The position numbers and the translations under genes are program-made. The notes under the pieces are model-generated. The model worked only from the letters and a program-made list of their open reading frames with translations. It ran no database searches and was not told the origin of the DNA. From a virus: DNA of 23,152 nucleotides. Location: positions 1 through 23,152 of the IMG/VR virus record IMGVR_UViG_3300042731_008554; one strand, 5' to 3'. Positions 694 through 23,152 of the stretch are shown in pieces (positions within the stretch are counted from its first letter, which is position 1; each line of letters opens with the position of its first letter).

Positions 694-1128
694 TTATCCC
701 TTGAATGCTACATATATCTCGCGGGCATCGACCTGGTACGCATCTCCGCCAGCGCCGTCCGTGCTCCACAGCTTGATATAGTGCGCCGCATATACCTCCG
801 GCGGAAGCTCATATGCAGCAGCAACGGTGCCAACGCTGTCGATCGTGACCTGATTGCCGTCTTTGTCGTATAGCGGGTAATAATCCCCACCGCTTGAGTA
901 TGCAACCTTGAAACCAAGTTTTGCTGTGCCACCGCTGGTCCAGTCGTCCGGTACCAGTGCCATGCCGCCAGCAAGCTCACGCATGTCGATCTCGTCACTA
1001 AGAGCAGCAGTGCCCGCAATCGTTACCGTCACATATTTGTATGCGCGACCGATAAACGGTACGGTGTGTGGAACGTCGCGTACACCCTGACGCAGCGCCC
1101 CGTGACCCTGGTATGGGAAATAAGTCAT
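694..1128 (-). CDS. Putative virion structural protein
   Basis: This gene encodes 144 residues starting MTYFPYQGHG. The ATG at 1126-1128 follows GGAGG at four bases; a longer frame to 1146 has no such site. The composition (Gly, Ala, Val, Tyr, no long hydrophobic stretch) and ordered beta-type segments such as YVTVTIAG and YIKLWSTDG suggest a compact beta-sandwich, as in phage decoration or tail-accessory proteins. It lies directly upstream of the carbohydrate-binding-like partial gene and downstream of the glycosyltransferase cassette, so it probably starts the next structural block. No catalytic motif is visible. The role is inferred from context only. Confidence 0.75.
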   Translation of the reverse strand: MTYFPYQGHGALRQGVRDVPHTVPFIGRAYKYVTVTIAGTAALSDEIDMRELAGGMALVPDDWTSGGTAKLGFKVAYSSGGDYYPLYDKDGNQVTIDSVGTVAAAYELPPEVYAAHYIKLWSTDGAGGDAYQVDAREIYVAFKG

Positions 1129-1129
1129 A

Positions 1130-1840
1130 TTACCTCCAGCGCGCACGAACGCGCATCGCTTCTGCTGCGCTAAGAGCCATCTGCGAGTTGCCCAATGTAA
1201 GACATGTTTTGTACATCAAGCTAAGCGGCTCTGATATATATGCGAACTGTTCACCATTCGCAGATAAGCGCAAAAACCAATCATAGTCCCCGGCGCTAAT
1301 TAGCGTCTCATCAAGTATACCATAGCGCTCGTGCAGCGATTTCCGCCACATGGGGTGCGGGTGAATATACCCGCCGAGCAACAGCCTGCCGTGATGGTGC
1401 GGCTGAGCTTCTGTTCTCCCATACGCACACTTATTGCCCCACGTTGCCTTCTCGTTCCGCGTGTACCACCCGCTTGCGTACGCCAGCGCGATGTCATCGT
1501 CGTCATCCAGCACTCCAGCAAGCACGTATGGAAGGTGAGGTGCCATTTTATCATCTACGTTTGCCGGCATGATGTATTTGCCGCGCGCCTCTGCGATTGC
1601 GTAATTCCACGCCGCATACAAACCAACGCGATGCACAGTGTCAATTAGTATAACCGAACCGGGAAAAGTATCGGCAAATTCCCCGGCCATAGTCGCCTGT
1701 TCATCATCAGACGCAACATTTACAAAGACAAGCTCTATATCTTTTGCAATGCCGATATCTGATATGTTTTTGAAAAATCCCGGCAGCCACGCACCCGCGT
1801 TATATGCAGATGTCACTAATGAAACTTTAAACTCTCTCAT
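1130..1840 (-). CDS. Family 2-like glycosyltransferase (GT-A fold)
   Basis: This 236-residue protein resembles inverting GT-A glycosyltransferases, which transfer a sugar from a nucleotide-sugar donor. The N-terminal strand VSLVTSAYN (6-14) is the usual nucleotide-binding start. NVDD (94-97) sits where the metal-binding DXD motif is expected. GDYDWFLRL (184-192) matches the acceptor/catalytic-base region of family 2. It is short for the family and has no membrane segment, so it probably acts in the cytoplasm. It overlaps the upstream glycosyltransferase by 14 bases, implying translational coupling. The donor and acceptor cannot be predicted. Confidence 0.85.
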   Translation of the reverse strand: MREFKVSLVTSAYNAGAWLPGFFKNISDIGIAKDIELVFVNVASDDEQATMAGEFADTFPGSVILIDTVHRVGLYAAWNYAIAEARGKYIMPANVDDKMAPHLPYVLAGVLDDDDDIALAYASGWYTRNEKATWGNKCAYGRTEAQPHHHGRLLLGGYIHPHPMWRKSLHERYGILDETLISAGDYDWFLRLSANGEQFAYISEPLSLMYKTCLTLGNSQMALSAAEAMRVRARWR

Positions 1841-2732
1841 TGGATTCTCCCAGTAGAACGAGCTGTATTATCTCTGACAGACGGTGTGTATATGTGTGCC
1901 CCATCGCCCACGAGCGCGCTTCCTCGGCAACAAGCTCAAGCTCAGCATCGTTTACGTCATTCGCGAGATGATTAGCCAGGGCAAGCATTTCTTTTTCGGA
2001 ATGGTACACATAACAGTTTTTACCATGCTCCAGGCCAAGAAATCTCATGTCTGGCGCATCCGATGTCATCAAGATAGCGCGCGACGCAGGAACCTCAAAC
2101 ACGCGCATGTTCGTATCGTATGCGTAAGAGTGCCCATAGAACGACTGAACGTTAAAAACAACCCGTGCAGAAGAATACAGCTTTGCCGCTTCTTCGTTGG
2201 TGTATGTATACGGCTCTGCCACAGCCAGGTCGAAATTCTTCTGCATTTTCTGAAGCATGATCGCTCTGCCGTCGTCGTATATAGCGCCCACAAATAGAAA
2301 CCCGTGCTTTTTTTCAACATCATGTGGCTGGTATATCTCCGTGTCCACCGCCAAAGGAAGCCATCTAAGCGCCTCGCACGGCATACCAATCAGCTCTAGC
2401 CGGTGAACGTCGGTACCTTGCGCACAGAATACCCACCCGCCATTTGCCAGAGCTCTGAGTGCTTCCTGGTCGCATTTATGTCTATACCACGGCAGTCTGT
2501 TGTCTATGAACCAATATGCAGTTTTTTGCATATACTCTTTCATTGGGCGCGGAAATGATCCAGAGCTGATAACAAGTATTAGATCGGCGGAATCAGCATC
2601 TTCTTCTGTCACATTGCGCACCGTATCAACATCATAATTAAGCGCACGCGCAGCGTCCGCCATGTACCTTACTGGATGCCAGTCCATCCCGAATGCGTCA
2701 AGTGGTTCGCCATTAGTTATCAGAATTTTCAT
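1827..2732 (-). CDS. CgeB-like glycosyltransferase (GT-B)
   Basis: This gene encodes 301 residues. The start MKILITNGEPLDAFGMDWH and a C-terminal half containing FLFVGAIYDDGRAIML (about 165-180), a YSSARVVFNVQ segment and MRVFEVPASRAILMTSDAPDM resemble the CgeB/DUF3880-type glycosyltransferases with a C-terminal Glyco_trans_1_2 domain. The FEVPASRAILMT element replaces the E-x7-E donor-binding loop of GT4 enzymes, as is usual in the CgeB family. It overlaps the upstream GT4 gene by 20 bases and the downstream GT2 gene by 14. A soluble cytoplasmic sugar transferase is likely; the substrate is unknown. Confidence 0.82.
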   Translation of the reverse strand: MKILITNGEPLDAFGMDWHPVRYMADAARALNYDVDTVRNVTEEDADSADLILVISSGSFPRPMKEYMQKTAYWFIDNRLPWYRHKCDQEALRALANGGWVFCAQGTDVHRLELIGMPCEALRWLPLAVDTEIYQPHDVEKKHGFLFVGAIYDDGRAIMLQKMQKNFDLAVAEPYTYTNEEAAKLYSSARVVFNVQSFYGHSYAYDTNMRVFEVPASRAILMTSDAPDMRFLGLEHGKNCYVYHSEKEMLALANHLANDVNDAELELVAEEARSWAMGHTYTHRLSEIIQLVLLGESNERV

Positions 2733-3669
2733 TGTGTACCCCCGCCGCCCTTAGTATTGCTTCTGGTAGATACTTCGCAGGATTACACCTGTCGCGCAAA
2801 AGCTCTAGCTGCTGGATACCAGCAGTAACAATATCATCTCGGTGATCCATAACGCACCACATAGCCTCTTGCATAGTTGTGCCATTGCCAACATACACGG
2901 CGGCCTGGCCGCATACCTCGCGGATGCTGCTGTTGTCGCGCGTGATGACTGGGCACCCATACGCCATAGCTTCAACAAGCGGTATGCCGAATCCTTCGTA
3001 CAGCGACGGGTATACCAGCGCCGTTGCGCTTGCATACAGCGATTTCAGCATTTCGTCTGTAACATTTTGCATTCTGTGCAATATGCCAGGATGAGATACT
3101 TCAAACGCAGCCTCAACCGGGATCATGTGCTCGCCGCCAACGGCAACAATATGCAACGCCTGTGGCACGCTATGCCAGTCGCGATATAGCGAGCGCGCGT
3201 TTTTATACCCGCTGCGATTGCCAACAAGCAAAACGTAGGGAGCATTCATGTTTGCGTTTCTGTCTGGGCTTCTGTCAATCTCAGGTATTACCGGGTATAT
3301 CACATACACATCACCAAGATACCCAATATGTTTTTGCAGGTCAAGAGCTGTGCTGGCAGATATCGCGATCGCAGAGTGCGATTTCCCCAACGACATCTTC
3401 ATTTTTCCCATATCAAATGGCGCTGAGCCAAACTGAGACGGGAACATTGTCTGTATAAAGTCATATACTGTCACTATAGTTGGCACACTATATGGCGAAA
3501 CGCCGTAATACGTCGGAAGATACACATCTGCATCGTTGCACAGATCGGCAACAATGATGTCGTCGTCCGGCATACTTTCTCGAAGAACGTCTATCCATCC
3601 ACGCCACAAGTTTGCTATCCCGCCGGCGGGCTTTGCCCTAAATATTTCCGTATCGATCCAAATCTTCAT
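2713..3669 (-). CDS. GT4-like glycosyltransferase (GT-B)
   Basis: This 318-residue retaining GT-B-type enzyme has an N-terminal acceptor domain with a GGIAN glycine loop (16-20). The linker YVLLVGNRSGYKN (145-157) is followed by the donor domain with YPSLYEGFGIPLVEAMAYGCPV, whose E225 and E233 form the E-x7-E signature that binds the nucleotide-sugar phosphate and ribose. Length is slightly short for the family (350-400). It overlaps the methyltransferase upstream by 32 bases and the CgeB-like gene downstream by 20. It is one of the more canonical enzymes of the cassette and is probably active. Donor unknown. Confidence 0.9.
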   Translation of the reverse strand: MKIWIDTEIFRAKPAGGIANLWRGWIDVLRESMPDDDIIVADLCNDADVYLPTYYGVSPYSVPTIVTVYDFIQTMFPSQFGSAPFDMGKMKMSLGKSHSAIAISASTALDLQKHIGYLGDVYVIYPVIPEIDRSPDRNANMNAPYVLLVGNRSGYKNARSLYRDWHSVPQALHIVAVGGEHMIPVEAAFEVSHPGILHRMQNVTDEMLKSLYASATALVYPSLYEGFGIPLVEAMAYGCPVITRDNSSIREVCGQAAVYVGNGTTMQEAMWCVMDHRDDIVTAGIQQLELLRDRCNPAKYLPEAILRAAGVHNENSDN

Positions 3670-4234
3670 CTTTTACCCACCTAAGTGCTATGCCGAGCTC
3701 GGTCGGCAATACAACATCGGTACCTATGGTTGCTAGCGCCCTGGCAACATCAACGTTCTTTGCGTCATGGAATATTACCAGTCCGCCGATCCTGGTGTTT
3801 CCAGCGATAAATTCCCAGTCTGCTAACACGCCTGGCGTTGTGTGATCGCCGTCAACGAACACGAGATCATATGTAACCTCTGGGATTTCATCCTTTTCAA
3901 CATTGTAGAACTGAACAACGCTGTCCAGCCGCGCCTTTTTCACATTCGTTGCGGCAATTTCCAAAAATGTGTCATTTATGTCCACGGAATGCAAAATTGC
4001 GCCCGGCTGACCGTGATTCTTCATCGCCTCTGCCAGAAACATCGTGCTGTACCCGAAAAAGCACCCAATCTCCAGAGCGATCTGTGGCGACTGCGCTGCG
4101 CATATGCTGTGTATAATCCTTGCCTCAAGCGGTGTAATGCTGCCGCCATTCGGCATGTGCTCCAGCATCGTGTACCCGCCGAATCTGTGCTGCGCGTACC
4201 CTCTTTCTATTTCCCTTATTACGTCATTAAACAT
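3638..4234 (-). CDS. Class I SAM-dependent methyltransferase (Methyltransf_24-like)
   Basis: This 198-residue Rossmann methyltransferase has motif I ALEIGCFFGYST (53-64), an acidic residue D85 at the end of strand 2 for the SAM ribose, and LVFVDGDHTTPGV (124-136) followed by VIFHDA (153-158). The VDGDH plus HD pattern is typical of Methyltransf_24 and related sugar or antibiotic O-methyltransferases that use a metal. Flanked by glycosyltransferases and overlapping its neighbours by 8 and 32 bases, it probably methylates a sugar added by the cassette. That role is inference; a protein or small-molecule target is possible. Confidence 0.85.
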   Translation of the reverse strand: MFNDVIREIERGYAQHRFGGYTMLEHMPNGGSITPLEARIIHSICAAQSPQIALEIGCFFGYSTMFLAEAMKNHGQPGAILHSVDINDTFLEIAATNVKKARLDSVVQFYNVEKDEIPEVTYDLVFVDGDHTTPGVLADWEFIAGNTRIGGLVIFHDAKNVDVARALATIGTDVVLPTELGIALRWVKDEDLDRYGNI

Positions 4235-4460
4235 CTTTGTGCTCGCTGTTTTCTTTTATGTATTCCCTTAGAGCCCCGAACTTCGCTCTGAGTTCGTCAT
4301 CGCCATACATCATGATGTATCGGTCGCCCATTTGCTTGAACGAGAACATGATCGACACGCCATTCGGCTTTGAGCGTAACGACGCGAACTGAAGCTCGTC
4401 AATGCTGAAAATCAGCGATTGGTCGCCGTGCTCGAAAATGAATTTTACATCTGCGCACAT
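4227..4460 (-). CDS. Hypothetical small protein in glycosyltransferase cassette
   Basis: This gene encodes 77 residues starting MCADVKFIFEHGDQSL. It abuts the stop of the upstream glycosyltransferase (start at 4460, neighbour ends at 4461) and overlaps the methyltransferase by 8 bases, so it is firmly embedded in the operon. AGGTACTGTAA precedes the ATG. The protein has alternating beta segments (VKFIFEHGDQSLIFSI, VSIMFSFKQMGDRYIMMY) and then an amphipathic helix, an alpha/beta pattern without cysteines, membrane segments or known motifs. It may be an accessory or regulatory subunit; I recognise no family. Confidence 0.7.
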   Translation of the reverse strand: MCADVKFIFEHGDQSLIFSIDELQFASLRSKPNGVSIMFSFKQMGDRYIMMYGDDELRAKFGALREYIKENSEHKDV

Positions 4461-5429
4461 TTACAGTACCTCCTTGATTGCGGATATAATAGGATCACAG
4501 AAATTGTCCCATGTATAGGTCTGCTCCACGTGGCGCGCTGCCGTAACCGAATGCAGACCAAGGAAACCTTCGCTAACTACTTGCAGTGTCTCAAAAGATT
4601 CTCCGGTCAAATCCATCTTGCCCATATCGATGTTGTCTAGAATGAATGTGGATGAGTTTTTGTAATACCCGCTGGTGACCGTGCAAATCACCGGCAGGCC
4701 CCATGATGCAGCCTCAAGTACTGTGGTGGGGTTCGCATCAGATACGCCGGCGTGTATGAAGTAATCACACTCGTCACATAGCTCGGCTGCTGCATTGGCG
4801 TCCATTCTCGACCACGATATGTGCCTGAAGTACGGCAGCCCGTTCTCCATGATGCTAGTCATTTCATTCGGAAATGGCCCTATGTGTACCAGGCGAAGGT
4901 TGTTCTTTAGCGCCATTGCCATCAGTTGTTTCTGCCCCTTCTCCGGGCGCATGTCCGTTATTGCCAGAAACGTTCTTTCATGCGGCGCGTTCCAGTTCCA
5001 CTTTCTGAACTTGAAGTGCTCTGGGTTAATTGCCATATCCAGCCTGTGCATTTTTGGACGCCACGATGCGAATTCTGATTCGCCTATGGTGTCCATCCAG
5101 TACTTTCCGGTTATCGCAAAGTATTTGTCGCACTGTTTAACCAGATGGTCTGCCCACGCATTCGATTCTGGCATCGCGTGATGAAATGGGAACAGCAAGA
5201 ACATGCGTTTTGCGTTTACCGCTTCCCACATTGGCGTTTGCTTGTTCGGATGCGGGTGCCCTATGACGATATCGTTCTTCCCAAACCGCGCCGGCGAAGC
5301 AACATCCCATTGGTGAAACGTAACATCTCCGAACTCATTCTTGAGACGGCGATACAGTTCTTGCGTGATCGTATCTGGCGAGCGCCGCACATCTGAAAGC
5401 GGATTACCAGCATATACCAGGTGTATCAT
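4461..5429 (-). CDS. GT-B-type glycosyltransferase with altered E-x7-E motif
   Basis: This 322-residue protein begins MIHLVYAGNPLSD. It contains FLAITDMRPEKGQKQLM (154-170), the linker/loop that starts the donor domain in GT4-like enzymes, and CDYFIHAGVSDANPTTVLEAASWGLPVICT (about 221-250). In the donor loop the first glutamate of E-x7-E is replaced by aspartate (D231, E239), a conservative change seen in divergent GT-B proteins. It overlaps the next upstream gene by one base. A cytoplasmic glycosyltransferase of the cassette is likely; altered specificity or reduced activity cannot be judged from sequence. Confidence 0.82.
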   Translation of the reverse strand: MIHLVYAGNPLSDVRRSPDTITQELYRRLKNEFGDVTFHQWDVASPARFGKNDIVIGHPHPNKQTPMWEAVNAKRMFLLFPFHHAMPESNAWADHLVKQCDKYFAITGKYWMDTIGESEFASWRPKMHRLDMAINPEHFKFRKWNWNAPHERTFLAITDMRPEKGQKQLMAMALKNNLRLVHIGPFPNEMTSIMENGLPYFRHISWSRMDANAAAELCDECDYFIHAGVSDANPTTVLEAASWGLPVICTVTSGYYKNSSTFILDNIDMGKMDLTGESFETLQVVSEGFLGLHSVTAARHVEQTYTWDNFCDPIISAIKEVL

Positions 5430-5635
5430 TATTCGCTATTGCCAAGCCGCGCTTCCAGCACTTTGTTCATGTCGCTTACAACAAGCTCTTCGTAGTCACA
5501 TGCCAGGAAATCGCGCACCCACGTCAGCCACACGTTCGGGATTGGCGCGCGCGGCGTGTCAGGGTAATGCGGCTCCTTATCGGCACCGCTACGGCCACTA
5601 TTCAGTTCCTCAACGGCACGTTGCATTTTGGACAT
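5429..5635 (-). CDS. Hypothetical small protein in glycosyltransferase cassette
   Basis: This gene encodes 68 residues starting MSKMQRAVEEL, with a good GGAG site six bases before the ATG. It starts just after the stop of one glycosyltransferase and ends overlapping the start of the next. It is hydrophilic and rich in Pro, Asp and Glu, with a central PNVWLTWVRDFLACDYEELV segment that could be an amphipathic helix. There is no membrane segment, Cys pair or known motif. It may be an adaptor for the neighbouring enzymes. I recognise no family. Confidence 0.7.
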   Translation of the reverse strand: MSKMQRAVEELNSGRSGADKEPHYPDTPRAPIPNVWLTWVRDFLACDYEELVVSDMNKVLEARLGNSE

Positions 5636-5636
5636 T

Positions 5637-6788
5637 TTATACTCCTATTAGTTCGGAAACTGCATCGAGTGCGGGCTTCCAATATTTTTCTGTCACCAGG
5701 TCTGCATCGTATTCTTCAGCACATAGCCTTGCGTGTGCGCGCAATTTGTCTTCTTCCTCGGTGCCACGCGCATTATACCGCTCAATCAGCGCCTCCAGAA
5801 TGTCGGCAACGCTGGGCAGGAATTGCTTCGAAAGCTGAGGTGTAGAAACTGGCAACCCTCTAACTGCCGTGCCGGCAAATGTGAGCTCAGACATCGCGGT
5901 AGCATTTGTTGTGATAACCGGGCACCCTGCCATCTGTGCCTCAAGAACAGTCAGTCCGAACCCTTCACCCATCGACGGATTCAGTAGAACGTCCGCAGCA
6001 TTGTACAGATCATTTATGAAGCCAGTGGGGTACCCAGTAGCCAGCGTTGTTGGGTCGGCAAATCTGATGTTTTCCGGCCCAATACCGTTGATGTTTGCTT
6101 CGTGCATCAGGTCGCAGCCGTGCATTCTTGTCGTGTAGTCGCTGTGCATATACAGTAAACTGTTGGGGTGATCCCTGATGAAATAGCCCCACGCCTCAAG
6201 AACCTGCGGGAACGACTTTCGCACAGGCCAACCCTTGTTTGCGGCAACCATTACGGCAATGAATTTGTCTTTGTGCTCTGGTGTGAATATCTTGCTGCGC
6301 GCCGCGTCGCGATCTCCCGGTAGATATTGGTCCTTGGGCACGCCATGAGGCACATACATCGGGTCAAGGTCGGCCTCAAGCATTTTCTCGAAGCCAAACT
6401 TGCTGTACGCAATCGGCACAAGCGCCGTTCTTAGCGCATCCACCACCTTGGGCGGGATTGGATCGTGATCGACCGGAGCCCATGCAACCCACGGAAATAC
6501 GCCCTGGCGGTACGCCTGACCAAGCACCCATGCATCCACAAGCGTAATTACAACGTCAGCTCCGAAGTGCTTTACGTGTGGAACAACGGCGTCATTTCCC
6601 CACCCATCGCCAATGGCCGGATATACTTCGATGCCCTGTTCCCATGTCAGCCTTGCGCCCTGCAAGCCATAGAATGCGAGAATGGCAACTTCGTGCCCAA
6701 GGTCGCGTATTCGTGGTGTGAAAATAGAGGTTTGCGTGCCGTAGCCCGTGGGTGCCCACGGAGCGTTAGAAACCCACATTATCTTCAT
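5637..6788 (-). CDS. GT4-like glycosyltransferase (GT-B)
   Basis: This 383-residue protein is the largest and most canonical glycosyltransferase of the cassette. The N-terminal domain begins KIMWVSNAPWAPTGYGTQT, with the glycine loop of GT-B acceptor domains. The donor domain carries FIAVMVAANKGWPVRKSF (176-193), then AADVLLNPSMGEGFGLTVLE, with E275 and E283 as the E-x7-E pair, and AGCPVITT after it. Length is normal for GT4. An AGGAG site (TAGGAGATTTTC) precedes the ATG. It is the first enzyme of the cassette in transcription order. Donor and acceptor are unknown. Confidence 0.92.
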   Translation of the reverse strand: MKIMWVSNAPWAPTGYGTQTSIFTPRIRDLGHEVAILAFYGLQGARLTWEQGIEVYPAIGDGWGNDAVVPHVKHFGADVVITLVDAWVLGQAYRQGVFPWVAWAPVDHDPIPPKVVDALRTALVPIAYSKFGFEKMLEADLDPMYVPHGVPKDQYLPGDRDAARSKIFTPEHKDKFIAVMVAANKGWPVRKSFPQVLEAWGYFIRDHPNSLLYMHSDYTTRMHGCDLMHEANINGIGPENIRFADPTTLATGYPTGFINDLYNAADVLLNPSMGEGFGLTVLEAQMAGCPVITTNATAMSELTFAGTAVRGLPVSTPQLSKQFLPSVADILEALIERYNARGTEEEDKLRAHARLCAEEYDADLVTEKYWKPALDAVSELIGV

Positions 6789-6797
6789 GAAAATCTC

Positions 6798-7022
6798 CTA
6801 TTTCTTTGGCAACCCTGGGCCGTGCTGTATCCGAGAAAACACCCGCTTTTCTTCTGGCTCAGGATGTACCGTTATAATTTCCAAAATGTCGCCAGGCAAA
6901 ACAAGGCCAGACCTCGCTGCTACACGGTGCAATTCGCGCGCGAGCAGAAAGACCTGACCTTGTAGTATCTCGACCTGTTCCTCAAGGGCCGTAACCCTTG
7001 GGGCATACGATTTTCTACCCAT
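6798..7022 (-). CDS. Small coiled-coil protein preceding glycosyltransferase cassette
   Basis: This gene encodes 74 residues starting MGRKSYAPRV; the ATG at 7020-7022 has a G-rich site (GAGGGGGG) directly upstream, better placed than an in-frame ATG four codons earlier. Residues about 10-38 (VTALEEQVEILQGQVFLLARELHRV) form a heptad-like coiled coil after a basic N-terminus; the C-terminal half has LPGDILEIITV. It sits nine bases before the GT4 gene and after an intergenic stretch with two hairpins. It may be an oligomeric accessory protein of the cassette or a small head protein. No family recognised. Confidence 0.68.
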   Translation of the reverse strand: MGRKSYAPRVTALEEQVEILQGQVFLLARELHRVAARSGLVLPGDILEIITVHPEPEEKRVFSRIQHGPGLPKK

Positions 7023-7041
7023 TGCCCCCCTCAACTGGACA

Positions 7042-7091: not shown

Positions 7092-7508
7092 CTAGTCGAA
7101 CCCAGCACCGGGTAGATAGTCGATATGGATAACTGGATTGACGGCAGAGCCGGCATTTGAAGCCTGAGGGCTGTAGACGAACACGAGCCACTCGCCCTCA
7201 AGCATCGACGCCTCGGTAAATGCGGTGCCGCTAAGAACCTGGAGGTCGCCCCATACGGTGCCACCAAGGTTCGCAGCAGACATCACAGAGCCGCCGGTCG
7301 ATTTCGCGGCAGAGCCGCCGGTCCCCCAGTTCTCGAAAGAGTCAATTGCAGTGCCGCCCTCAGCGCGGTTACCCTCACCAACAGCAACGCTCAAGCGCAT
7401 CAGTTCCAGGTCCACAGGAGCACGGAACACATGAACGCTTCGAGCCGCATCGGTCAGAGTCTCACTCAGGGCTACAACCACAGTTTTGATGTTATCTGAA
7501 CCAAACAT
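7092..7508 (-). CDS. Putative capsid decoration protein
   Basis: This gene encodes 138 residues starting MFGSDNIKTVVVAL. The ATG at 7506-7508 has GGGGG nine bases upstream, while the longer frame would overlap the capsid gene. It lies 14 bases after the major capsid gene. The protein is rich in Gly, Ala, Ser and Thr, with a beta-type pattern (SVHVFRAPVDLELMRLSVAV, EGEWLVFVYSP, VIHIDYLPGAGFD) and a flexible serine/threonine-glycine stretch around 65-90. Position and composition fit a head decoration or stabilising protein. The Ser/Thr-rich loop makes it a plausible acceptor for the adjacent glycosyltransferases, but that is inference. Confidence 0.75.
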   Translation of the reverse strand: MFGSDNIKTVVVALSETLTDAARSVHVFRAPVDLELMRLSVAVGEGNRAEGGTAIDSFENWGTGGSAAKSTGGSVMSAANLGGTVWGDLQVLSGTAFTEASMLEGEWLVFVYSPQASNAGSAVNPVIHIDYLPGAGFD

Positions 7509-7522
7509 TGTATGTAGCCCCC

Positions 7523-8401
7523 TTACACAGTGTTGGGCGAGCTCAGCTCGGCAACCAGGGCGCAGCCCCAATTGTCGCGGCGGACGCCGTGAGCATACCC
7601 CATCGTCATAACAAGTTCCCAGGCGCGTTTAGTGATGTCGCGGTCGGCCTCAAGTCTGGGCGCGCGACGCACGTCCAACGCCAGAGATTCGCGGTGGAAC
7701 AACCCGTTATAACCAGCGGTGCCGGCAGTGCCACGAACCGAGTCGGTGATGGTGCCTCTGGCGATATTCGCGCTGGTAAACCAGGTAGCGTTCATCCACG
7801 AGCCTACATAGAAGCCACGCATGGCTTCGTTAGCTATGTCGCCAAGGAACGCAAAGTTCGCTTCGGGTTTGCCAAGCTCAACCCAAACGTCATGCCACGC
7901 GAACGGGTGCAAGACGTAGCTGAGCGGGTTATTAACGGGCACGGCGCGAAGCTCGGACATTGCGGCGGCGCAACGTTCAATGCCAAGCGCTGAGCCAGCA
8001 TAACCAACCGTCGAAGCGAAGCTTGAAAAGTTGCCCAAGATATCGGTATCAACTTTGTATGCGATCGCAGCACCCATTTCAGAAGACGAGCTGCGACGCG
8101 CGTCCTCCGGGTCTGTGGTGATGCGCCGGTCGGTGAGTTCGACGCCGGTGACAATTTCACCGGGGGTCAGCGTCACCGCAGTGGATTTCGTCCACTGGGT
8201 CGGATTCACGAAGTCCTGATCTTCGTCGATGGTTCTAGCAGTCATCTGCGGGTAGATACCGATATGACGGTCCATCCAGCCCGATGCAGAGTAGTTCGTC
8301 ACCATCGCGGCCATCAGGTTCATCTCGCGCGCAACGAAAAGCGTATCCTCGTAGATATCCGGATACAACTTTTGCATTGACGCAACAGTTGAAAGAGTCA
8401 T
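7523..8401 (-). CDS. Major capsid protein (HK97-fold-like)
   Basis: This 292-residue protein follows the scaffold gene, the usual position for the shell protein. Features that fit include an N-terminal segment MTLSTVASMQKLYPDIYEDTLFVAREMNLMAAMV, a beta-rich E-loop-like region (PQMTARTIDEDQDF, TPGEIVTGVELTDRR), a central alpha/beta region (ALGIERCAAAMSELRAVP then YVLHPFAWHDVW), and RDNWGCALVAEL near the C-terminus. Length matches capsid proteins without an N-terminal delta domain, consistent with the separate scaffold gene and the absence of a visible maturation protease. The call rests on synteny and overall pattern more than on a diagnostic motif. Confidence 0.85.
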   Translation of the reverse strand: MTLSTVASMQKLYPDIYEDTLFVAREMNLMAAMVTNYSASGWMDRHIGIYPQMTARTIDEDQDFVNPTQWTKSTAVTLTPGEIVTGVELTDRRITTDPEDARRSSSSEMGAAIAYKVDTDILGNFSSFASTVGYAGSALGIERCAAAMSELRAVPVNNPLSYVLHPFAWHDVWVELGKPEANFAFLGDIANEAMRGFYVGSWMNATWFTSANIARGTITDSVRGTAGTAGYNGLFHRESLALDVRRAPRLEADRDITKRAWELVMTMGYAHGVRRDNWGCALVAELSSPNTV

Positions 8402-9576: not shown

Positions 9577-11529
9577 CTATTGCCCATAATCAACCTCGCG
9601 CAAATACAACAGCCAGTCTGCAACGCCAAACGCGGAATGCTCTGGCGTTACGCGAACAAAATCGTACGGCGAATACGCCGCATCGCCGCTCATAATAACT
9701 TCGCGCATCCACGCATACTCGCTATCGGCAATTGCTTCTATTGATACGCCCCTGGAGTTGGACGTTACCACGGCGATAATGCGATTTTTATCAGCGCCGT
9801 ACTGCGACGCAAGCTCAGAAGCAACCACGGGCGATCTTGAGAAGCTAGATAGCGCATCACTCAGTATTATAACATCATCTTCGTCAACCCCAGATGCATA
9901 TCTGATAAGGATGTCGTCCGCAAGCCCCTGGTCAATGCCGCGATATATTGGATTGCCATACGCAGGCAATATCTCAAGCCCATCGCGTATTACAGCCAAC
10001 TGCGATCTACTCAGCGAACGCACGCCACCTGACGTGTACTGTTGCAGCGCGCCCTTGAATTTGTAGTAATCGACGCGCGATGGTGCAATGTACCCGGCGA
10101 TCTGATGCACGCTAAGCGGTGCTGGTTGCGGTTGTGTAAATATCCTTGGTATACCGACGCCGCGCCCAACTGCCTGTGCGTAGCTGGCTTGGCGGTACAT
10201 GTTCCCAAACACAGGATCGTTGTACGGTACGGTAAGCTTGTTAAAGTCAAGCCCGCTGCGCCGCCAGTACTGCCACAGTTTATCTCCAAGTATCGATCGC
10301 TGAACATCAGTGGGCTGCGAGTTGAACCACTCCTCACCGGACAAAATTTCTCTTGGTGCCTCGTCTATATCAAAGCCAAGCTCTCTGTATGTCAATGTTT
10401 CTGGCAATGGCGTACACCTGCCCCTATGATGGTCCTCAAGCTCCTCTGTTACAGGGTGCCTTGAGCCGTGCCACGATACACAGCTCGCGCATGTCAGCCG
10501 GTCAAGCTCGGCCCACCAAATCCATCCCTTGATTACGCCACCATTCTCGACTGAATTCAGTCTGTATACTTCGTGCGACACAGTTCTGTACGCATTCATT
10601 TGCACCGTGCGCGTGATGCGCAGCGCGTCATTGAACGGCACATTATCGGTGTATCTTGCAATATAGCGTGCCGTCTTGATTGGGTTCCACCCCTTGGATA
10701 TACCGATTGTTGCAAGATTCCTCAGGATTTCTTCCGACTGCTCGCCATAATACCTGATGCGACTTAGCAATTCAGGGTTTTTTAGATAATTTGTTGCCGC
10801 AGTTACCCACCGCGGGTCAACATGATTCCACGCCGCTGCTATGCCCGCAAGCTGCGCCTCGCTATTTAGTCCATACTGGGCAAGTACCGCATTTAGCGCG
10901 TCACGCTCTGCCGCCGCTGCGGCATGTGATATCAGACCGTCAAGCTCCGACTCTAGCAATGCCGAAAACTCGCGCATTTCTTTGCCAAACTGGTAATTCA
11001 GCTTCATGTTCTTCAGTATCTCTTCCCAGTCTGACTCAGATAATGCCTGTCTAACTGCACGACCAACTATACCGGAAACGCCGCCATACATGGCAACCTC
11101 GGATGTTTTTCTTAGGCCGCTCGTTATAATTCCTGTCAACGACGGCACGCGCGCAGGCGATAAACCAATGCGGTACGTGCGCGTTCCTATTTTGGGCCGC
11201 GTGATTGGCGTTCTTATACCAGCTATGGTGACGGTTTTGTTGTAAATCCTTGGCCGGGTTATTGTTGCTATGATCTGCGGGATCGATGCGGACCTGGCGT
11301 TTATCGTGTCGGCTATCTCGTATACTGTATCCAGTGTAAGCTTTTCGGCGGCACCGCTGATGGATTGCGCAGCAACCCCAACGATCATCCTGTTCGTTGT
11401 GGTGTACAAGCGCGATCGTACGCCGGCATAAGCGTCACTTAGGATATATGCCGTGTCTGCATGTCGCGCAACAAGAGACGCGCGATTTACTGTCGCAATA
11501 TCTCCCAGGAGATCGTCAAACTCTGGCAA
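9577..11529 (-). CDS. SPP1 gp7-like minor head protein fused to ADP-ribosyltransferase-like domain
   Basis: This 650-residue protein follows the portal and methyltransferase genes. Residues about 280-405 match the phage Mu F/SPP1 gp7 head-morphogenesis domain: RITRTVQMNAYRT (304-316), a CASC pair (C347, C350), DHHRGRCTPLP (366-376) and EEWFNSQP (399-406). The N-terminal 280 residues are helical and probably contact portal and interior. The C-terminal part (about 470-650) has the pattern of an ADP-ribosyltransferase toxin fold: IYRG with R530, SSFSRSP (561-567) as the S-x-S strand, and MREVIM with E610, followed by DFVRV. The residue two before E610 is Met rather than Glu/Gln, so activity is uncertain. 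The start is TTG at 11527-11529, directly after the upstream stop, with GGGGGAG ahead of it. Confidence 0.85.
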   Translation of the reverse strand: MPEFDDLLGDIATVNRASLVARHADTAYILSDAYAGVRSRLYTTTNRMIVGVAAQSISGAAEKLTLDTVYEIADTINARSASIPQIIATITRPRIYNKTVTIAGIRTPITRPKIGTRTYRIGLSPARVPSLTGIITSGLRKTSEVAMYGGVSGIVGRAVRQALSESDWEEILKNMKLNYQFGKEMREFSALLESELDGLISHAAAAAERDALNAVLAQYGLNSEAQLAGIAAAWNHVDPRWVTAATNYLKNPELLSRIRYYGEQSEEILRNLATIGISKGWNPIKTARYIARYTDNVPFNDALRITRTVQMNAYRTVSHEVYRLNSVENGGVIKGWIWWAELDRLTCASCVSWHGSRHPVTEELEDHHRGRCTPLPETLTYRELGFDIDEAPREILSGEEWFNSQPTDVQRSILGDKLWQYWRRSGLDFNKLTVPYNDPVFGNMYRQASYAQAVGRGVGIPRIFTQPQPAPLSVHQIAGYIAPSRVDYYKFKGALQQYTSGGVRSLSRSQLAVIRDGLEILPAYGNPIYRGIDQGLADDILIRYASGVDEDDVIILSDALSSFSRSPVVASELASQYGADKNRIIAVVTSNSRGVSIEAIADSEYAWMREVIMSGDAAYSPYDFVRVTPEHSAFGVADWLLYLREVDYGQ

Positions 11530-12090
11530 TTATCTCTTTCTCCCCCACGCAAGCGTATCTGCCATGCCAGGATTCCCAACAATGGGCCATATGTGCTCGG
11601 CCCAAACGCGTCGCGGCCCCTCCCAATGTTTGTCTGGCGAAACGTCGTGTATTGCAATGATCCCTTTTCTAGTTAGCCACGGCCAAAATGCCTCGAAGTC
11701 GTGAAGCGCACCCTCGTAAGTGTGCGAGCCATCAATAAACAACATATTCACCGGCTTGTTCCACTTGGGGGCGATGTCTTGCGACAAACCAACAATTGGC
11801 CTTGCAAGGTGCTCTACACCAACACGCCTCATGTTTTCGCAGAAGTCATCCAGGTTGTGGTGCCATATTGCGTCGGAATACTCTTCCGTCTGATCGGTTT
11901 CGAATGGGTCGATTGCATACACTGTTTGGCCCGCCAGCGCCATTGCTGCTGTGCTAAGCCCTTTATAGCTGCCAATCTCAAGAATGTCGCCATATGCGTT
12001 GCGCGCCAGCATATGCAGCGCCGCACACTCTGCCTGCGTAAGGTACCCGCGAATACCATTAAGCCTGATAAATAGCTCGTCATTATCCAT
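11530..12090 (-). CDS. Class I SAM-dependent methyltransferase (Methyltransf_24-like) inside head operon
   Basis: This 186-residue protein has LEIGSYKGLST (37-47) as motif I, D61 (VYAIDPFE) for the SAM ribose, MLFIDGSHTYEG (116-127) and IIAIHDV (144-150). It belongs to the same broad group as the methyltransferase at 3638-4234 but is clearly divergent from it, so this is not a recent duplication. It is tightly packed between portal (two-base gap) and the minor head gene (stop and start adjacent). It could modify a virion protein or a sugar built by the cassette downstream; the target is unknown. Confidence 0.87.
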   Translation of the reverse strand: MDNDELFIRLNGIRGYLTQAECAALHMLARNAYGDILEIGSYKGLSTAAMALAGQTVYAIDPFETDQTEEYSDAIWHHNLDDFCENMRRVGVEHLARPIVGLSQDIAPKWNKPVNMLFIDGSHTYEGALHDFEAFWPWLTRKGIIAIHDVSPDKHWEGPRRVWAEHIWPIVGNPGMADTLAWGRKR

Positions 12091-15487: not shown

Positions 15488-15671
15488 CTTCCTCCTCGTC
15501 TCTGTCATACAGCAGACGACGCACTGCGCCAGCCGCTACCAGAGCAAGGGCGAGAAGCGCTTCGCGTCTAGCGGCCATCGCAAGCGCTGCCATGTCGCGC
15601 AGCGCGGTTGCTCCACCCCCAGCACGACCGCGCCGCGCTCTGCCTCCGCCCCCCTTTTTTGGCCCAGGCAC
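15474..15671 (-). CDS. Small basic/hydrophobic protein upstream of terminase
   Basis: This gene encodes 65 residues from a GTG start (15669-15671) that overlaps the upstream stop as TAGTG, with GGGGGAG six bases ahead. The N-terminus MPGPKKGGGGRARRGRAGGG is a Gly/Arg/Lys tail like those that bind nucleic acid. Residues 33-56 (MAARREALLALALVAAGAVRRLL) form an alanine/leucine-rich helix that could be weakly membrane-associated, and the C-terminus is acidic. The stop overlaps the small terminase start. It may act with the terminase on DNA. No family recognised, and the low-complexity composition lowers confidence. Confidence 0.6.
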   Translation of the reverse strand: MPGPKKGGGGRARRGRAGGGATALRDMAALAMAARREALLALALVAAGAVRRLLYDRDEEEDGRV

Positions 15672-16807
15672 TAGGTTCTCCCCCTGACGGAATCACTTTC
15701 CTCGGTTATGAACGTAAGGCCATTGATATCGCAGTACTGGCGAATAGCAAGACCGCCGCCATACACAACAAACAGCAGGTCTTCTGGTCTATCTACGCCC
15801 GCCCTGGTCATAGCTATGCTAACTGCTGCATCCAGCATATCTATGGCGTCCTCAAGCTCAGTGTACCCACGAGTAGCGTACGCTTTCCACCCCTGTGGAA
15901 CGCCAAGCATATTGTAGTCGTCGAATTTCTCCGCAACATTCATGTCAACAAATACGCGCAAGCCGCACGTTTGCCAATACCTGGACAACCAGCGCTTTTT
16001 GTATATATAGTACAGCCCAACGGCAACCGGCGTGTCTGCCCCGCATGAGAAATTAGGCTCAACAACAGAAACCGCGCCACTGTTGGGTAAATGCTCAGGA
16101 TGCTTCCACAAAGCGGTAAATTTGTAGTCATCAGTGTAAAAATGCACTGAGCCGTCATACGATTTGCCTCTGTGCCTGGCGGTGCGACCCCATTTCTCAA
16201 ATGGCGAGTCAACATAATCTGCCTGCAAAGACAAATCAAGCACTGGTATTCCCCACCGATTGTTTGTTGAGAACAGCGCATTTGGCACATCTGACGGTTT
16301 AAATTTCTCGTCAGCGTCGCCGGTTTGCTCTTCTGCGGCGCTGCCCTTGGATTGCAGCATGTCACTGATCGATTCCATTTTGCGTTCGCGTATCTGGCGT
16401 ATCGCATCAAGATCAAACCCGACCGTTATGTTTGGCGTGCTTTCCGCAAGCTTCTTGAGAATGTTTTTTAGCGCTGACTGGTCGTAGCCAGCGCGCCTGC
16501 CTACTTCATTTAGCGCGAGCGATACTGCATCGTGCTGCTCGGCAGGTATCCAGTCCGCAACAATAACAGGGACCATCCAGGCACCGTCTTTGGAGACGCT
16601 GATATTACGTGGTGGGTCGTTCCCAGCCTTGCAGTATGCATCTAGCGCCTGGATGCGCCCGTTTCCACCAATTACAACGCTATTGCTAACAACAACATCG
16701 CCTATGAAACCGTAATCCCTAAATGAGGCGTGTAGCTCTTCGATATCGTGCTTTTTTGGGTTGCCTTCCAGCAACATTCCCCTTAGCTCTTCAAGCGGCA
16801 ATCTCAT
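15671..16807 (-). CDS. ParB-like N-terminal domain fused to DUF4417
   Basis: This gene encodes 378 residues from the ATG at 16805-16807, which overlaps the upstream stop (TAATG) and has GGAGG seven bases ahead. Residues about 10-110 match a ParB/sulfiredoxin-like domain: GNPKKHDIEELHASFRDYG (15-33), then VVIGGNGRIQALDAY (44-58), the phosphoryl-binding GxxR-like motif, and ADWIPAEQHDAVSLALNE. Residues about 180-360 resemble DUF4417: NRWGIPVLDLSLQADYVDSP, then AVSVVEPNFSCG and a C-terminal LLFVVYGGG. Proteins with either half are common beside phage terminases. A DNA- or nucleotide-dependent packaging accessory role is inferred; the function of DUF4417 is not known to me. Confidence 0.85.
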   Translation of the reverse strand: MRLPLEELRGMLLEGNPKKHDIEELHASFRDYGFIGDVVVSNSVVIGGNGRIQALDAYCKAGNDPPRNISVSKDGAWMVPVIVADWIPAEQHDAVSLALNEVGRRAGYDQSALKNILKKLAESTPNITVGFDLDAIRQIRERKMESISDMLQSKGSAAEEQTGDADEKFKPSDVPNALFSTNNRWGIPVLDLSLQADYVDSPFEKWGRTARHRGKSYDGSVHFYTDDYKFTALWKHPEHLPNSGAVSVVEPNFSCGADTPVAVGLYYIYKKRWLSRYWQTCGLRVFVDMNVAEKFDDYNMLGVPQGWKAYATRGYTELEDAIDMLDAAVSIAMTRAGVDRPEDLLFVVYGGGLAIRQYCDINGLTFITEESDSVRGRT

Positions 16808-17076
16808 TAGCACGCCTCCGCGCGCACCGCACGCATCAATCGCAAACGGTCTGGGTGCATATGCCATGCCACGTCTTCCAGAACGCGATCGATCTCGCCG
16901 TACGGCAGCTCCATGACATTTTCGTCGGTAAATTGGTCGATATACCTGAGCAGATCGCCAAGCGCAGCCATCTCAACATCTACATTGCCGGCAGTAGTAA
17001 ATGTAGTCGAAAGCTCAAGTATGACCTGCGCGTCCTCGATTGTCAGATTAGAGAAATCAAACCTTATTCTCTGCAT
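16807..17076 (-). CDS. Hypothetical protein
   Basis: This 89-residue protein starts MQRIRFDFSNLTIEDAQVI, with a GGGGG site five bases ahead. It is acidic and helical: a beta-strand-like start, then an amphipathic helix (DAQVILELSTTFTTA), MAALGDLLRYIDQFTDENVM and a C-terminal YGEIDRVLEDVAWHM helix. It overlaps the zinc-binding gene upstream by 20 bases, and its stop overlaps the start of the ParB-DUF4417 gene. There is no recognisable motif. Coupling suggests it is made in step with the downstream ParB-like protein. Confidence 0.72.
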   Translation of the reverse strand: MQRIRFDFSNLTIEDAQVILELSTTFTTAGNVDVEMAALGDLLRYIDQFTDENVMELPYGEIDRVLEDVAWHMHPDRLRLMRAVRAEAC

Positions 17077-19501: not shown

Positions 19502-19573
19502 TACCGCAGGGGGGACTCGAACCCCCACTGCCAGTTTAGAAGACTGGTGCCCTGTCCATTAGGCGACTGCGGC
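19502..19573 (-). tRNA. tRNA-Arg (UCU)
   Basis: On the minus strand all four arms fold. The acceptor GCCGCAG pairs with CTGCGGT (one G-U), the D-stem is GCCT/GGGC, and the anticodon stem CCAGT/ACTGG encloses loop CTTCTAA (anticodon TCT, reading AGA). The T-arm GGGGG-TTCGAGT-CCCCC is canonical, with A at the discriminator. CCA is not encoded. The first base of the tRNA is also the last base of the stop codon of the gene at 19573-19812, so the two must be processed from one transcript. It probably supplements rare AGA decoding. Confidence 0.93.
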
Positions 19574-22668: not shown

Positions 22669-22934
22669 TACGCACGCACGCCACGCACGTGCGAAAAACG
22701 TTCTTCTATCGATGCGGCGCTGCAACGAACGCGCAGTGAGACTATCGCGGCGCTCCGCGGGCGCGTACGTCCGCGCGGGCGCGTGTGCGGGCGCGTATGC
22801 GCGCATGTGCGCGGGCGTGTGTGCGCGCATGTGTGCGCGTGACGCGCGCGTGTGTGTGGGCGTGTGCGTGTGCGCGCGTGTGTTAGGCGCACACGTGTGT
22901 GCGCGCGCGTATAATGTATGCTTAGCGTTGCTAC

Positions 22935-22951
22935 ATATGTGTGCCACATAT
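22935..22951. repeat. Inverted repeat (possible operator) beside a TATAAT
   Basis: ATATGTG (22935-22941) and CACATAT (22945-22951) form perfect 7-bp arms around TGC. A perfect TATAAT lies 20 bases to the left (22910-22915, plus strand), but the region 17 bases upstream of it has no -35 match. A protein-binding site is possible. Confidence 0.45.
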
Positions 22952-22982
22952 TATCAGTGTCACATACAATCAGTGCTTCATA

Positions 22983-23041
22983 GTACGTGGTGCTAATGGT
23001 ACGTAGTGCGTATATACGTGTAAGCTAATGGTACGTGGTGC
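22983..23041. repeat. Short direct repeats GTACGTRGTGC (iteron-like)
   Basis: GTACGTGGTGC occurs at 22983-22993 and 23031-23041, with a one-mismatch copy at 22999-23009 and a partial copy at 23091-23100. Two copies are part of an 18-base unit GCTAATGGTACGTRGTGC (22992-23009 and 23024-23041), period 32. Such clusters can be initiator or regulator binding sites. Confidence 0.6.
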
Positions 23042-23055
23042 ATCATAGTGTGTAT

Positions 23056-23091
23056 GGGGTATGGGGTGTGTGGTGTGGGGGTAGTGTGGGG
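23056..23091 (+). other. Potential G-quadruplex cluster
   Basis: Four G runs lie at 23056-23059, 23063-23066, 23077-23081 and 23088-23091 on the plus strand with loops of 3, 10 and 6 bases. This fits a G-quadruplex-forming motif with one long loop. It is embedded in a TGTGG-rich tract. Confidence 0.5.
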
Positions 23092-23152
23092 TACGTGGTG
23101 TGTGTGGTGTGCGGGGGTGTGTGTGGTGTGTGGTGTATACGCAGTGAGTGTA

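Follow-up and report, generated by a model that had tools for sequence, protein, structure and literature searches.

We analysed a window of 23,152 bases that makes up the whole of IMG/VR record IMGVR_UViG_3300042731_008554, a tailed-phage fragment with its genes on the minus strand. In minus-strand order these genes encode TerS, TerL, portal, a methyltransferase (MT2), MuF, an unknown open reading frame (ORF), scaffold, the major capsid protein (MCP), a cement-like protein and a small ORF, followed by a cassette at 1130-6788 (-). The cassette contains three GT4-type GT-B glycosyltransferases (GTs), one CgeB-like GT-B, one GT2-type GT-A, one PF13578 methyltransferase (MT1) and two small ORFs. 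Its junctions in transcript order were +1, -1, 0, -8, -32, -20 and -14 nt, with +1 nt to the following ORF, that is, gaps of at most 1 nt and overlaps of 1-32 nt. An initial annotation made from the sequence alone had described five GTs, one S-adenosylmethionine (SAM) methyltransferase and two small genes coupled by overlaps. All eight ORFs were recovered as it stated, and Pfam support was well above chance for all the enzymes except GT-B2, which lay just over the cut-off. Our analysis makes it likely that these enzymes build a methylated glycan stepwise in the cytoplasm on a virion protein, most probably the MCP or the cement-like protein, and the evidence centres on the conserved position of the lead enzyme, GT-B1, beside the MCP.

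The cassette enzymes carried intact motifs. Pfam Glycos_transf_1 or Glyco_trans_1_4 matched above cut-off in GT-B1, GT-B3 and, narrowly, GT-B2, placing them among GT4-type GT-B enzymes. The EX7E motif was present in GT-B1 (residue 275) and GT-B3 (225), GT-B2 carried DX7E (231), and E275 and E283 of GT-B1 were invariant across 41 sequences. The GT-A sequence carried D-D and GDYDW motifs. An AlphaFold2 model of GT-B1 (41 sequences) had a predicted local distance difference test (pLDDT) score of 95.3 and matched retaining GT4 enzymes; modelling supported the GT-B double Rossmann fold for GT-B1 only, with 3oy2 as the top match (template modelling score, TM 0.77). This structure, chlorovirus NY-2A B736L, was the best Protein Data Bank match both by profile (6.6e-13) and by fold (4.6e-20), and B736L binds GDP-mannose (PMC9614988). 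No membrane span was predicted in any cassette product. GT-A had relatives in Prochlorococcus phages P-SSM2 and P-SSM5, GT-B2 had none among phages or in IMG/VR, and the closest NCBIfam model of MT1 was a rhamnosyl O-methyltransferase, below its cut-off. Single-protein IMG/VR scans with the window MCP, GT-B2 and the CgeB-like enzyme gave no matches, and the scan with TerL gave one (25%).

GT-B1 was found in a recurrent slot with the order MCP, cement protein, GT-B1, variable glycan genes and neck genes. Relatives of GT-B1 were present in at least 570 IMG/VR stretches and in the GenBank genomes of Microcystis phage Mae-JY09 (45%) and Pontimonas phage phiPsal1 (33%), where they sit directly after the MCP, or after the MCP and one small gene, and ahead of the adaptor/neck genes; weaker relatives were found in phages S-CBS4 and TJE1. 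The 80 best loci showed scaffold, MCP, usually a ~130-aa protein, GT-B1, variable genes, neck, adaptor, tail completion and tail tube. Among GT-selected loci with a recognised MCP, which include the window and phiPsal1, GT-B1 started 9-1508 bp after the MCP in 66/66. GT-B1 was also present in 72/72 MCP-selected loci with enough downstream sequence (68 within 1.33 kb), and in 21/25 portal-selected loci with this MCP, compared with 2/8 of the portal-selected loci that carry a different capsid gene and show 9 kb or more of sequence (Fisher p 0.002-0.004, relatedness ignored). The samples overlap, some of their contigs are nearly identical, and GT-selected loci supplied the MCP and portal queries, so the numbers express a strong association and not an unbiased rate. 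The divergence of GT-B1 tracked that of the MCP (Mantel r 0.78) and of the neck (r 0.86). These results indicate that GT-B1 goes with the MCP lineage rather than with the portal.

The GT-B1-negative loci were inspected individually. L243 shares a contig with L233, whose GT-B1 lies 4.5 kb downstream, just beyond the L243 flank, and the MCP match of L308 is only marginal. L250 and L251, apparently one phage, have no GTs; with the same MCP type and an MCP-to-neck interval lacking a GT, L250:8292-12275 is a natural GT-free control. A separate observation concerns L097:7668-13647, close to one end of a 222-kb contig from Anaerolineae, where GT-B1, a second GT and neck/adaptor genes lie beside chromosomal-looking genes; no capsid gene was seen at this locus, a possible prophage remnant.

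The genes behind GT-B1 were variable. Counting genes of 100 aa or more between GT-B1 and the neck/adaptor, the 54 closed slots held 1 (4 slots), 2 (28), 3 (8), 4 (4), 5 (4), 6 (4) or 8 (2). The window has five enzymes and two further ORFs after GT-B1 in a slot that is still open at the contig end, which places the window, with five GTs and the two methyltransferases MT1 and MT2, at the large end of the range. Among 60 cargo representatives, 14 had GT2 matches, and several methyltransferase families, epimerases, GLF and radical-SAM proteins were also found. Individual slots contained a UDP-galactopyranose mutase (L021:5505-6512, PF03275 2.3e-64) and radical-SAM proteins of B12-binding and SPASM types (L006:4667-5914 and L011:12315-13232). 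The slot L043:11820-17798, ahead of the neck gene, held two GH42-like genes and a complete ribose-type ATP-binding cassette (ABC) transporter (ATPase, permease and periplasmic binding protein), which is very unusual for a phage virion operon. GT-B1-type and methyltransferase-type regions were fused in one protein in L038, and gp108 of Che8 is a GT2-PF13578 fusion, suggesting that GT and methyltransferase activities serve one product. The downstream cargo is thus exchangeable while the GT-B1/MCP pair is conserved, and a cassette moving as one unit, as had been considered at first, was not observed: GT-B1 stays with the capsid module and the other genes swap.

Features of the window discussed in the text
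Feature	Coordinates	Strand	Evidence
GT-B1, GT4-type glycosyltransferase, lead enzyme of the slot	5637..6788	-	PF13692 2.2e-12; phrog_2170 6.1e-28
68-aa small ORF	5429..5635	-	AGGAG ribosome site
GT-B2, divergent GT4-like glycosyltransferase	4461..5429	-	PF00534 1.3e-6, 28.5 bits vs cut-off 26.4 (weakest match); DX7E
77-aa small ORF	4227..4460	-	AAGGAGG ribosome site
MT1, class I SAM O-methyltransferase	3638..4234	-	PF13578 2.9e-17
GT-B3, GT4-type glycosyltransferase	2713..3669	-	PF13692 8.1e-17; EX7E
CgeB-like GT-B glycosyltransferase	1827..2732	-	PF13524 1.4e-13
GT-A, GT2-type glycosyltransferase	1130..1840	-	PF00535 7.6e-15
MT2, second PF13578 methyltransferase, portal/MuF interval	11530..12090	-	PF13578 3.6e-23; resembles MT1
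Major capsid protein (MCP), candidate acceptor	7523..8401	-	PHROG major head protein 1.7e-4; alignment A6
Cement/decoration-like protein, candidate acceptor	7092..7508	-	family A5; fold model
Small ORF, cement gene/GT-B1 interval	6798..7025	-	sequence only
Protein after cassette, candidate virion protein	694..1128	-	position only
Partial appendage-like protein, truncated at contig end	2..691	-	phmmer 8e-34 to L016:797-1840

The initial annotation had placed the cassette between capsid-type and tail/fibre-type genes. The capsid side was borne out by the MCP and the cement-like protein, and the tail/fibre side only in part: the protein after the cassette had no Pfam or PHROG family match, and the truncated protein at the contig end is appendage-like, its match in L016 itself weakly matching a tail PHROG. 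By comparison with relatives, neck and tail genes would be expected past the left contig end, where the slot is still open. An accessory role suggested for the two small ORFs within the cassette found no support; neither has a Pfam or PHROG family or any relative that we could find, and the codon score of the 68-aa ORF was no better than that of another frame. No relatives were found for the small ORF between the cement gene and GT-B1. The first list of cassette-related enzymes was also incomplete, as it had missed MT2, which lies between portal and MuF with gaps of 2 and 0 nt. MT2 was the only methyltransferase recognised at this position among 52 related loci, in half of which portal and MuF lay within ~200 bp with no ORF found between them; it likely belongs to the same pathway as the cassette.

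Other features of the window were recorded as well. MuF (9577-11529) has 650 aa, about twice the ~330 aa typical of its relatives, and its C-terminal extension had no Pfam match and a weak minor-head PHROG match at 524-619. A tRNA-Arg with a TCT anticodon lies at 19502-19573, a ParB/nuclease-like PHROG match and a DUF4417 domain lie upstream of TerS at 15671-16867, and the right end of the record (22757-23136) consists of GC- and GT-rich low-complexity repeats. A foreign origin of the cassette was rejected on its GC content (0.47-0.56) and codon use, which resemble those of its neighbours. No consensus site above chance was found for a dedicated promoter before the cassette. As an anti-phage defence system the cassette was rejected, PADLOC giving only generic methyltransferase matches to mad2.

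To interpret the cassette, we considered where its glycan might be placed. The enzymes could alter the host surface late in infection (capsule or O-antigen), blocking superinfection or the re-adsorption of progeny. Such a role has been proposed for a virion-block GT of Gratiaviridae (PMC8008677) and is one option for the GTs of freshwater actinophages (PMC10202952). GT4 and GT2 are enzyme classes typically found in polysaccharide pathways, several NCBIfam neighbours are enzymes of this kind, and the sugar ABC transporter in the L043 slot would fit as well. However, the cassette has no membrane-bound GT, GtrA-type flippase or lipid-carrier enzyme, and a host-surface enzyme would have no need to follow the MCP lineage instead of the portal and to co-diverge with it, as GT-B1 does. 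We consider a host-surface role unlikely.

Among the candidate virion acceptors, the MCP is the most general, because phiPsal1-type loci without a cement protein keep GT-B1 right after the MCP. The cement-like protein gave a beta-sandwich model with a moderate pLDDT of 73, for which the best fold match was cyanophage Pam1 capsid chain H (probability 1.00, E 2.3e-3), and the KHP40 cement protein was also among the top matches; it is named cement-like only, because of this moderate model confidence and because no fold match fell below E 1e-3. A paper that cites Freeman 2023, on mycobacteriophages, reportedly places glycans at C-termini. Most MCPs of the lineage carry a short Ser/Thr-Pro tail, DA[ST]xP[ST], at the extreme C-terminus (alignment A6). 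We do not claim this tail as a glycosylation site, since it is absent from phiPsal1-type MCPs and kept in the GT-free L250. The best MCP matches include contigs of Anaerolineae/Chloroflexi (Chloroflexota) metagenome-assembled genomes, a sequence-based lead to a possible host only.

The large slots L021, L039 and L051 end with a ~125-135-aa protein, which in L039 is a PHROG head structural protein, and then a 499-730-aa repeat-rich protein ahead of the neck gene. The window has a comparable pair after its cassette, raising the alternative that the glycan sits mainly on this appendage or fibre and not on the capsid, with larger slots bringing their own acceptor. However, most slots consist of GT-B1 and two other genes without a fibre pair, indicating that a fibre is not the general acceptor of GT-B1. 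We regard a mainly fibre-borne glycan as quite unlikely, and the repeat-rich proteins may serve as additional acceptors for the glycans of the larger slots.

Glycosylation of hypermodified phage DNA bases, which would confer nuclease resistance, was also weighed. DNA-glycosylating virus GTs exist, and this explanation has been proposed for freshwater actinophages (PMC10202952). However, no base-hydroxylating or hydroxymethyl-nucleotide enzyme was seen among the protein families of the window, itself a genome fragment, and the annotation of the complete phiPsal1 genome, in which the slot is present, lists none either. Pfam matched no TET-associated GT in the cassette, which adjoins the MCP and not replication genes. 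A role in DNA modification is very improbable.

We favour glycosylation of the virion. The cassette would act as a late-operon module whose enzymes work after translation of the capsid genes and draw on host nucleotide-sugars. GT-B1 probably adds the first or an early sugar to a virion protein, for which the MCP or the cement protein beside it is the likeliest candidate; the chain would be lengthened by GT-B2, GT-B3, the CgeB-like GT and GT-A, and MT1, perhaps with MT2, would O-methylate the sugars, so that the particle surface would carry a methylated glycan specific to the phage. The acceptor, the order of action, the sugars and the methylation of sugar rather than protein are what we infer from this arrangement, as is the purpose, which may be adsorption, stability or shielding. 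Of the earlier proposal of a stepwise methylated virion glycan, virion glycosylation with sugar methylation stands as the best-supported reading, given the MCP linkage, the lack of membrane spans, the enzyme classes shared with mycobacteriophages and the chlorovirus precedent. The branching and the number of sugars that had been read from the enzyme count stay conjectural, and the antibody evasion proposed with them was unsupported, as the record is environmental and no animal association was seen. Several observations weigh against virion glycosylation. Genomic adjacency alone also fits late host-surface modification, and the shared Ser/Thr C-terminal tail also occurs in the GT-free L250 MCP and hence gives no evidence for a glycosylation site. 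B736L has no proven acceptor, and mannose is missing from the capsid glycan of its virus (PMC9614988). The window GTs have no sequence kinship to the proven enzymes of Che8 or Dylan, and the locus samples contain near-identical contigs and were drawn in part with queries from GT-selected loci.

To our knowledge, a few mycobacteriophages are the only phages with proven virion glycosylation. We see about an even chance that a large tailed-phage capsid lineage, most of it uncultivated, has GT-B1 as a near-core gene whose product puts the first sugar on the capsid, and that the genes behind it occupy a hypervariable cargo site used by each phage to make a surface glycan of its own, in some cases with added genes for sugar nucleotides, radical-SAM enzymes or sugar uptake. 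If so, protein-linked virion glycosylation would be routine in many environmental phages and not a curiosity of a few mycobacteriophages. With a GT fixed beside one MCP lineage in hundreds of environmental contigs and swappable glycan genes behind it, surface glycans would be a common and variable trait of the particle. This would offer cultivable test cases such as Mae-JY09, and would prompt a re-reading of GTs ascribed in papers to DNA protection or superinfection exclusion.

We compared the window with known glycosylation systems. Corndog carries an O-methyltransferase and three GTs within its virion operon, for which its authors suggested capsid modification (PMC4351075), and PMC12363180, citing Freeman 2023, describes Che8 gp110 and Corndog gp38 as essential to the glycosylation of the capsid. 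Like the window, the Corndog cluster (Cluster O), for which glycosylated virions are reported, combines a PF13578/TylF O-methyltransferase with GTs inside the virion operon, whereas its cassette lies in the portal/protease interval instead of after the MCP and its GTs are GT2/GT25-like. The Che8-type (Cluster F) genes 108-110 also encode several GTs and a PF13578 domain (in the GT2 fusion), but lie at the right genome end and include no GT4 enzyme. Searches with phmmer found no relatives between the window and the proteins of Che8 and Dylan (Corndog cluster), including the GT25-like Che8 gp110/Corndog gp38. By sequence comparison, the window system resembles the mycobacteriophage GTs by analogy and not by homology, and it falls outside the Che8/Corndog GT families.

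Serotype-converting gtr clusters need a GtrA flippase, GtrB and a polytopic membrane GT, whereas the window has only a weak GtrB-like match of GT-A. Chloroviruses use GTs of their own to make a methylated capsid glycan stepwise in the cytoplasm, and PBCV-1 A064R is a GT-GT-methyltransferase protein acting on the capsid glycan (PMC7019647). PBCV-1 thus has what is proposed for the window, namely cytoplasmic assembly of a methylated glycan on the MCP by soluble GTs and a methyltransferase that the virus itself encodes, but it is a eukaryotic virus with an unrelated capsid, its genes do not form one cassette, and its glycan is N-linked. Mae-JY09 and phiPsal1 share with the window the order of MCP, GT-B1 relative, further sugar genes and adaptor/neck, but have only two further genes, a GT-A and an epimerase in Mae-JY09 and a methyltransferase and a GT2 in phiPsal1. 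The phiPsal1 slot is not discussed by the authors of that phage. Systems of this kind are known from a few phages and algal viruses; the present one is unusually large and sits in a capsid-side slot that is widespread but has drawn little notice.

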